Assembly: GCA_016193395.1 (NCBI GenBank)
Contig: JACPSH010000035.1
Coordinates: 1 to 37,100, forward strand
Reading direction: 5' to 3'
DNA from: Gammaproteobacteria bacterium
GTDB taxonomy: Bacteria > Pseudomonadota > Gammaproteobacteria > Eutrophobiales > Eutrophobiaceae
Length of the DNA stretch: 37,100 nt
Of this stretch, positions 14,290-15,513 are shown in pieces. The notes below the pieces were generated by a model. That model saw nothing but the letters and a program-made list of their open reading frames with translations, was not told the DNA's origin and searched no databases. The stretch's first letter is position 1, and each line of letters starts with the position of its first letter. The translations under genes and the position numbers were made by a program.

Positions 14290-14410
14290 CCTGCGGCTAT
14301 AGTGTGCCCGCATGGGCGACACCTTCGAGAAATTTACGGTCGGCAGTGAGGCCACCGATCGCATCGGCGTCGCCGCAAAAGCCGTAGGCGCGCACGTCGT
14401 GCTGGGGTGA
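14290..14410 (+). pseudogene. Nitrilase 5' remnant, copy 1
   Basis: Positions 14290-14343 match 15366-15419 with about four differences over 54 bp, covering a TATAGT hexamer, the ATG (14312-14314) and the codons for MGDTFEKFTV. The frame continues as GSEATDRIGVAAKAVGAHVV and stops at 14408-14410 after 32 residues. The first ten residues are the N-terminus of a carbon-nitrogen hydrolase (nitrilase). The rest is faintly like the first nitrilase helix and strand but is missing the AAVHAA..FLDR block. It is a deleted remnant, not a working enzyme. Confidence 0.65.
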
Positions 14411-14490
14411 GAAAAGGTGTCAAGTTCATTTTCAGACGCAGCGCTGGATCGAGTCTGTACTGGCGAAAATAAACCTGATACCTCTTTTTT
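14411..14490. repeat. 80 bp inverted-repeat element (GGTGTCAgGTT type)
   Basis: The left arm AAAAGGTGTCAAGTTCATTT begins at 14412; the right arm, read on the opposite strand, AAAAGAGGTATCAGGTTTAT, ends near 14490. The arms are mirrored with a few mismatches around a ~30 bp centre. Sequences of this GGTGTCAGG type are dispersed in many proteobacterial genomes, often as solitary non-coding palindromes. It lies immediately downstream of the zinc-finger gene's stop and could also serve as its transcript end. Confidence 0.6.
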
Positions 14491-14493
14491 GCG

Positions 14494-14760
14494 TCAGGCG
14501 GCGTCGGATTCCCCGAACTGCACGACGGGCACTTCGCGCGTCACGGCGTACTTGCGAGAGTTCTCCCTGATGCGGTCGAGCTCAAGTGCCGCCTCCGCGC
14601 TCAGGTAGCTCTCTCCGCAGTGGGGACAGCTCGTGACAGGGACGTTCTCGACGATAAGGAGACTCCGGCCGCTGCCGTAGCTGCGCGATACATGCCGCAA
14701 CCGCGCCCCCGGCTTGCCGCAGAGGTCACAAAGAACGCCTTTCTCCGTATGAGCCTTCAT
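14494..14760 (-). CDS. YgiT-type zinc-finger protein (MqsA N-terminal-like)
   Basis: 88 residues from the ATG at 14758-14760, which overlaps the toxin stop as ATGA; a longer in-frame reading to 14850 lies inside the toxin gene and is rejected. Two Cys pairs, CDLCG (about 11-15) and CPHCG (about 45-49), frame a strand-rich segment (LLIVENVPVTS). This is the small zinc domain that forms the N-terminal half of the antitoxin MqsA; the C-terminal DNA-binding HTH of MqsA is absent. Proteins like this are normally paired with a small BrnT/DUF4258-type toxin. Here the partner is a ParE-like toxin, making a three-gene cassette. Confidence 0.82.
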   Translation of the reverse strand: MKAHTEKGVLCDLCGKPGARLRHVSRSYGSGRSLLIVENVPVTSCPHCGESYLSAEAALELDRIRENSRKYAVTREVPVVQFGESDAA

Positions 14761-15065
14761 AAACCGGTTGACGGCAGTCTCGATCGCCAAATCGATGGGT
14801 CGCGGTGCTGGTGCAGAATCGCCAGCACCTTTACGAGCCCGCCTTCCCACAGGAAGTACACCGAGTACGGAAACCGGCGTAACAGGACACGCCGGGTCTC
14901 ACGATATTGCCGGTTGTACGCTTCGGGGGCATCAGCAGCCCTCTCCACGGCGGCGTCGATTTCCAGCAAGAACTCGGTTCCCAACCCCGGTCGCTGCGCT
15001 TCGTACCATGCCGCCGCGGCGTCCGCGTCGGCGACTGCCTGCGGTTCGAATCGTACCGGGTTCAA
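14757..15065 (-). CDS. RelE/ParE-family toxin
   Basis: 102 residues. FEPQAVADADAAAAWYEAQRPGLG at the N-terminus and YRETRRVLLRRFPYSVYFLWE in the second half are typical of the ParE side of the RelE/ParE superfamily; VKVLAILHQHRDPSIW closes the fold. The start is TTG at 15063-15065, overlapping the antitoxin stop (TTGA), so production depends on antitoxin translation. ParE members inhibit gyrase and RelE members cleave mRNA; this sequence lacks clear RelE catalytic residues, so the target is uncertain. Confidence 0.88.
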   Translation of the reverse strand: MNPVRFEPQAVADADAAAAWYEAQRPGLGTEFLLEIDAAVERAADAPEAYNRQYRETRRVLLRRFPYSVYFLWEGGLVKVLAILHQHRDPSIWRSRLPSTGL

Positions 15066-15301
15066 GAACCGCGGAGCTTGGCCAGCAGTTGCTCGCGGAC
15101 CTCAGGCCAGGGCCGGCCTCGATCCGGGTCGGCCCGGTACGCTTCGAGCCGCTCATCCAGTATCCGCTTGTGATGGTCCGGGACGGGCACCTTCTCCGGG
15201 TCCTGAGCGATCCGATCCCACAGCTCCTGAACGAAGGCAATCCGCTGCTCTCGGGATGCCGCCTCAAATTCCGGGGGGACTGGAAGCTTGGTCGTACTCA
15301 T
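15062..15301 (-). CDS. Addiction-module antitoxin (Unstab_antitox type)
   Basis: 79 residues. R-x-x-x-VQELWDRIAQDP near the N-terminus and HHKRILDERLEAYRADPDRGRPWPEVREQL in the middle match the small acidic addiction-module component family, which neutralises a ParE/RelE toxin encoded next. ATG at 15299-15301. Its TATAAT lies only 8 bp upstream, so the mRNA is probably leaderless or nearly so. It is the first gene of the three-gene cassette. Confidence 0.9.
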   Translation of the reverse strand: MSTTKLPVPPEFEAASREQRIAFVQELWDRIAQDPEKVPVPDHHKRILDERLEAYRADPDRGRPWPEVREQLLAKLRGS

Positions 15302-15309
15302 GCGCCCGG

Positions 15310-15315
15310 ATTATA
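15310..15315 (-). promoter_or_regulatory. Consensus -10 box of the toxin-antitoxin cassette
   Basis: TATAAT on the minus strand at 15315-15310, 8 bp before the antitoxin ATG, so transcription should start within a few bases of the start codon. No good -35 was found at 16-18 bp. An imperfect GCTCACGCGAGGAGCG just upstream might be an operator. Confidence 0.5.
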
Positions 15316-15365
15316 CGCTCCTCGCGTGAGCACACTACGTCACACCCATGAACGGGCACCCACCA

Positions 15366-15513
15366 CCTGCGGCTATACTGTCCCCGCATGGGCGACACCT
15401 TCGAGAAATTCACCGTCGCGGCCGTGCACGCGGCTTCCCCGTTCCTCGACCGCGACGCGGGCGTGGAGAAGGCCTGCCGCCTGATCGCCGAGGCGGCGGG
15501 ACGCGGCGACGGA
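15366..15513 (+). pseudogene. Nitrilase 5' remnant, copy 2
   Basis: ATG at 15388-15390, preceded by TATACT (15373-15378). The first ~42 codons read MGDTFEKFTVAAVHAASPFL then DRDAGVEKACRLIAEAAGRG, the N-terminal strand and helix of a nitrilase/cyanide hydratase-type carbon-nitrogen hydrolase. Homology stops near 15513, before the catalytic Glu region. The frame then runs antisense through a nuoN remnant to a stop at 15571-15573. A full enzyme is ~310-350 residues, so this is a truncated gene. The first 54 bp are shared with the copy at 14290. Confidence 0.75.

Follow-up and report, generated by a model that had tools for sequence, protein, structure and literature searches.

A YgiT-type zinc-finger gene joined to an Unstab_antitox–ParE pair: what looks like a one-off chimera of known toxin–antitoxin parts

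What is the gene for a zinc-finger antitoxin doing behind a toxin that already has an antitoxin of another family? The question is raised by three small open reading frames, each overlapping the next, which lie head to tail on the minus strand (14494–15301) of one entire contig of 37,100 bases. This contig, called the window here, is the whole stretch of DNA that was analysed and comes from a 60-contig, 2.7-Mb genome. Are the three genes parts of one working module? Or, is the group an ordinary pair to which a third gene has become attached?

Three overlapping genes and their families

The first gene (15062–15301, minus strand, 79 aa) encodes an Unstab_antitox antitoxin (PF09720, E = 1.7e-13, 50.8 bits against a cut-off of 23.3), and the cut-off of TIGR02574 is exceeded as well. 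The genome contains five Unstab_antitox matches. The second gene (14757–15065, minus strand, 102 aa, TTG start) encodes a toxin of PF05016, ParE_toxin (E = 3.4e-9, 37.6 bits, cut-off 23), and the solved ParE toxins are the best match of its model (pLDDT 91.7), with Z scores of up to 14.1 as against 11.1 for RelE. As described in PMC11980606, PF05016 takes in both gyrase-acting and mRNA-acting toxins. The third gene (14494–14760, minus strand, 88 aa), ygiT, encodes a YgiT-type zinc-finger protein (TIGR03831 YgiT_finger, E = 1.8e-11, 44.1 bits, cut-off 20.2), in which the four cysteines of the two CxxC motifs are all kept. The antitoxin stop and the ParE start have TTGA in common, and the ParE stop and the ygiT start share ATGA; the coordinates of the reading frames and the curated cut-offs thus confirm the anatomy, the families and both overlaps given in the initial annotation.

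The identity of the third protein deserves some comment. The full MqsA model, TIGR03830, gives 19.3 bits against a cut-off of 61.8 and is matched over the first 54 of its 127 positions, and PF15731 also stays below its threshold (18.2 bits, cut-off 30). Judged by its sequence, the window's YgiT is the zinc domain of MqsA without the C-terminal XRE helix-turn-helix (HTH) domain of the full protein. PF13453 was also tried as the finger family and found nothing in the window's own genome, because the right model is TIGR03831. As for its expression, no Shine–Dalgarno sequence is seen by eye directly ahead of ygiT, so that its translation probably depends on coupling across the ATGA.

Genomic neighbours of the pair and of the finger

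The pair is found elsewhere as a unit. A protein search with the window's ParE in 371 related genomes gave matches in 89, and the best 29 other loci were examined (at one of them, L180, the sequence ends less than 300 nt after ParE). An antitoxin homologous to that of the window is recognisable beside ParE in 20 of the 29. The finger does not travel with it: homologous pairs routinely go without the third gene in this sample, given that a profile of YgiT proteins matches none of the 29 loci and finds nothing beyond the two loci that represent the window.

The closest homologue of the pair (L205, on G015:C309) comes from the same family, and its ParE is 64% identical to that of the window. Here, too, the antitoxin comes first, the overlap is TTGA and the toxin has the ParE fold, and there is no third gene. 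At the DNA level, the two loci align from window position 15318, 18 nt before the antitoxin start, to about 14770, the end of ParE. The alignment takes in the TTGA overlap together with a TATAAT shortly before the antitoxin ATG (15310–15315, minus strand). This is a possible −10 element; no complete sigma-70 site came out of a promoter scan. The ParE of the homologue ends after the residues SRLP, whereas that of the window continues for four extra codons (STGL) to a stop inside the ATGA overlap with ygiT (14757–14771, minus strand). Since the stop of the homologue is missing in the window and the alignment ends there, homology ends at the junction. The grouping of the genes exceeds chance, because three curated cut-offs are passed and the antitoxin–ParE part, TTGA included, aligns to a pair from the same family. 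From the families to which they belong, the first two genes most likely form a standard type II pair, in which the antitoxin would hold ParE by binding and its loss would free the toxin.

What company does the finger keep? Directly upstream of the window's ygiT stands ParE, not MqsR or DUF4258. In 59 of 80 loci with YgiT relatives from named genomes, a DUF4258-like reading frame, fragmentary in some cases, lies just upstream; the DUF4258 profile was made from reading frames of these same 80 loci, and all 10 of the upstream frames then checked in Pfam are PF14076. Seven of 193 related genomes, besides the window's own, have YgiT matches. The two closest relatives among them, to which the window protein is 49% (L002/L038) and 55% (L003/L034) identical, likewise follow DUF4258-like toxins, and L034, which is the L003 locus, is confirmed by Pfam. 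In these two loci and 57 further ones, a homologous finger comes second, after the toxin gene, as it does in the window, where DUF4258 is replaced by a ParE with its own antitoxin. Five of the seven YgiT-bearing relatives also have ParE homologues, which are never adjacent to the finger among the matches listed, the nearest being 17 kb apart (G017). According to PMC11980606, DUF4258 is a BECR-fold toxin family of unknown target, and Table 2 of the same source contains DUF4258–MqsA fusions.

Wider samples of the domain give a similar picture. In Pseudomonadota, at least 69 places besides the window match TIGR03831, of which 60 were taken and 57 had an upstream reading frame (83 frames). Of the 21 named-genome loci that lack a DUF4258-like frame, 19 gave frames to Pfam; these, the 57 Pseudomonadota loci and three distant loci make up a set of 117 upstream frames. 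Among the matches listed for this set (25 of 45 families), DUF4258 appears 25 times, MqsR 16 times and ParE once, in the window. In Chloroflexota, the phylum of an Anaerolineaceae record (L015), at least 73 of 301 genomes have a match. Of the 70 loci chosen for study, 68 yielded the finger again and 61 an upstream frame (80 frames). Pfam assigned 25 of these 80 to DUF4258, 12 to signal peptidase S26 and none to ParE. The finger domain thus changes neighbours, with three distinct gene orders (DUF4258, MqsR and, in Chloroflexota, also signal peptidase), and the expectation that YgiT fingers usually accompany DUF4258 or MqsR-type toxins is well founded.

Some side observations were made in these samples. 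The recurrent arrangement with signal peptidase S26 directly upstream of the finger in Chloroflexota does not look like a toxin–antitoxin system. At one Pseudomonadota locus (L129), the frame upstream of the finger resembles, by eye, a BrnA-type antitoxin. The only DUF4258 of the window's own genome is on another contig (C5; L150, 1447–1988) and overlaps a 73-aa reading frame that has no match in Pfam and may represent another family of antitoxins against DUF4258.

The neighbourhoods bear on the proposal, made in the initial annotation, that the third gene could belong to a three-component module. The PaaR–PaaA–ParE and TAC systems likewise combine, within one operon, an antitoxin, a toxin that is a ParE or has the BECR fold, and one more small gene. 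There the additional gene is a regular constituent, whereas the combination seen in the window has no second instance among the loci examined. A conserved but rare toxin–antitoxin module, with the finger as its corepressor or chaperone-like part, would account for so compact and overlapping a triplet, and three-component ParE systems are in print (PMC8630535). However, no second triplet appears in 60 Pseudomonadota, 70 Chloroflexota and 80 mixed YgiT loci or in the best 29 other ParE loci, and ParE stands upstream of no other finger among the matches listed, which makes such a module very improbable. In the open-licence literature, no published ParE–YgiT triplet was found. The finger protein may still have a lineage-specific function.

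The explanation we prefer, with a probability of roughly 0.7, is that recombination has attached a zinc-finger antitoxin gene of the DUF4258-partnered kind to an ordinary type II pair, at the 3′ end of the toxin gene, and that the finger is a passenger or an orphan.

The zinc ribbon and the contact helix

If the finger has left its usual toxin, has it changed? The best structural match of its model (pLDDT 86.4) is MqsA-N, the zinc domain of MqsA, at a modest Foldseek E value of 7e-3. Superposition gives Z scores of 6.4–6.8 and an rmsd of 4.3–4.7 over 67–69 residues, as against Z scores no higher than 4.2 for other folds. MqsA also turns up in a profile search, as a weak match (E = 0.03). The likeness to MqsR–MqsA goes no further: the window has neither the HTH domain nor MqsR, and sequence identity is low (14–15%).

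The pattern of conservation is uneven along the protein. The window's YgiT retains all 18 of the zinc-ribbon positions chosen for their conservation among DUF4258-paired proteins, as well as the motifs of its C-terminal tail. In the helix after the ribbon, 6 of 9 conserved positions are changed (T54S, T57A, H59L, E62D, K65R and R68S), as against at most three of the same nine in any of the other 80 rows; the ranking covers all 81 rows, 78 of them free of gaps in the helix. When conservation is defined less strictly, the window departs from the conserved residue at 8 of 12 helix positions and at 3 of 33 others; the weighted permutation test (p = 0.00014) used 76 of the 80 relatives, L053, L058, L077 and L088 being left out, and helix limits that were set post hoc. 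In the MqsR:MqsA complex described in PMC2791442, the strand that follows the second CxxC forms the centre of the primary interface, to which residues of this helix also contribute. As the changes are concentrated in the helix while the ribbon is kept, the would-be toxin-facing surface has changed and the signature of the fold has not.

Can the change be narrowed to a single contact? In the same structure, Arg61 of MqsA forms a salt bridge to Asp33 of MqsR (PMC2791442). Position 68, a serine in the window, was considered as the counterpart of Arg61 and rejected: only the profile alignment, with a one-residue gap, pairs the two. The structural match (9–76 with 1–68, 68 residues) would put Arg61 opposite position 69, which is still an arginine in the window. 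Because the two pairings disagree, the argument rests on the whole helix and not on a single residue.

In the YgiT tree, the branch of the window is long (2.14, against a median of 0.33), paired and unpaired rows are mixed, and no origin is indicated for the window row. The still longer branch of L058 is an alignment artefact, this row being 13% filled.

The altered helix is compatible with a finger that has lost its original toxin or, with lower probability, one that has adopted ParE instead. In the event of a switch from DUF4258 to ParE, the finger would now be a second antitoxin or a co-factor of ParE, its zinc scaffold kept and its helix rewritten, and ParE would be under two unrelated antitoxins. 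The clustering of the changes in a region that provides primary-interface residues in MqsR:MqsA would suit such an exchange, as would the overlap of the ParE stop with the ygiT start and the fact that PMC11980606 lists ParE, MqsR and DUF4258 as families of one superfamily. Yet relaxed constraint after the loss of the old partner fits the helix pattern equally well, and several of the changes are conservative (T54S, E62D, K65R). Moreover, ParE already comes with an antitoxin family of its own, and the junction looks accidental next to the homologous pair of G015. An exchange of partners is, on balance, unlikely.

The finger might instead have kept its old target and act in trans on DUF4258-type toxins, guarding against incoming DUF4258–YgiT modules. 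PMC7354431 reviews orphan antitoxins for which an anti-addiction role has been inferred, the closest relatives of the window's finger are partners of DUF4258 toxins, and the ribbon and tail motifs are kept. This role is nonetheless rather improbable: the part that has changed is the very helix conserved among the DUF4258-partnered members, and the one DUF4258 of the genome, of a different-looking subgroup, has another overlapping neighbour.

The site of the cassette and the joining of the third gene

The place itself shows signs of rearrangement, namely the remnants of a hydrolase gene and an interspersed palindrome. A carbon–nitrogen hydrolase (nitrilase-type) gene is broken here, with one remnant on each side of the cassette, and a 53-nt direct repeat, 92% identical, that spans the start of this gene flanks the cassette. 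One copy (14290–14342, plus strand) consists of the leader and the first 10 codons; the other (15366–15418, plus strand) has the same leader and gene start and continues as the first 40 hydrolase codons (15388–15507), which match annotated carbon–nitrogen hydrolases. The 25-nt core of the repeat has these two occurrences in the genome and no others. A palindromic repeat with 22-nt arms (14412–14486), a member of an interspersed family, lies next to the 3′ end of ygiT; its half-site has 29 occurrences in the genome at up to three mismatches, compared with none for a reversed control pattern. Folded as a single strand, the palindromic repeat is not exceptional (z = −0.71). The nearest variants of the palindrome are on contig C17, which is also home to another Unstab_antitox–ParE pair.

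Other approaches to the history of the site were less telling. An empty-site comparison with seven relatives found a CsiV-like gene and mfd side by side and detected no other neighbour from the window. GC3 is 0.71–0.73 for antitoxin and toxin, 0.79 for ygiT and 0.78–0.87 for six neighbours, so that codon use would make the antitoxin and toxin weakly foreign, which is not decisive. A mobile-element origin was considered and rejected, YgiT relatives being absent from the plasmids and viral contigs searched; ParE relatives are present in eight plasmid records and in none of the viral contigs. None of the three proteins was matched by PADLOC.

How, then, would the third gene have been appended? 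In the sequence of events that we infer, recombination would join ygiT, normally partnered by DUF4258, to the 3′ end of parE. The join would remove the ParE stop and add four codons, thereby creating the ATGA overlap, and the finger gene would now be co-transcribed and probably translated by coupling. The Unstab_antitox protein alone would hold ParE, the finger would not be needed for its control, and the toxin-contact helix of the finger would be drifting or being re-tooled. In this operon the finger probably has no role, or else one of protection in trans. No remnant of DUF4258 is found at the ParE–ygiT junction, nor was a genome intermediate between the unjoined and the joined state found among those examined. 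The exact ATGA overlap and the 18 kept ribbon positions indicate that ygiT shows no plain signs of decay, and these would suit a working third component. Taken as a whole, the cassette looks like an unusual chimeric operon of known parts, a one-off product of recombination.

Antitoxin families swap toxin families, and to our knowledge the intermediate stages of such swaps are seldom seen. If the finger does not bind ParE, the operon is a reminder that an overlap of start and stop does not by itself prove a functional unit. If the finger has gained ParE binding, nature would have supplied a test case in this operon: the related two-gene locus of G015 could serve as the control, and the altered residues of the helix form a set that can be defined.
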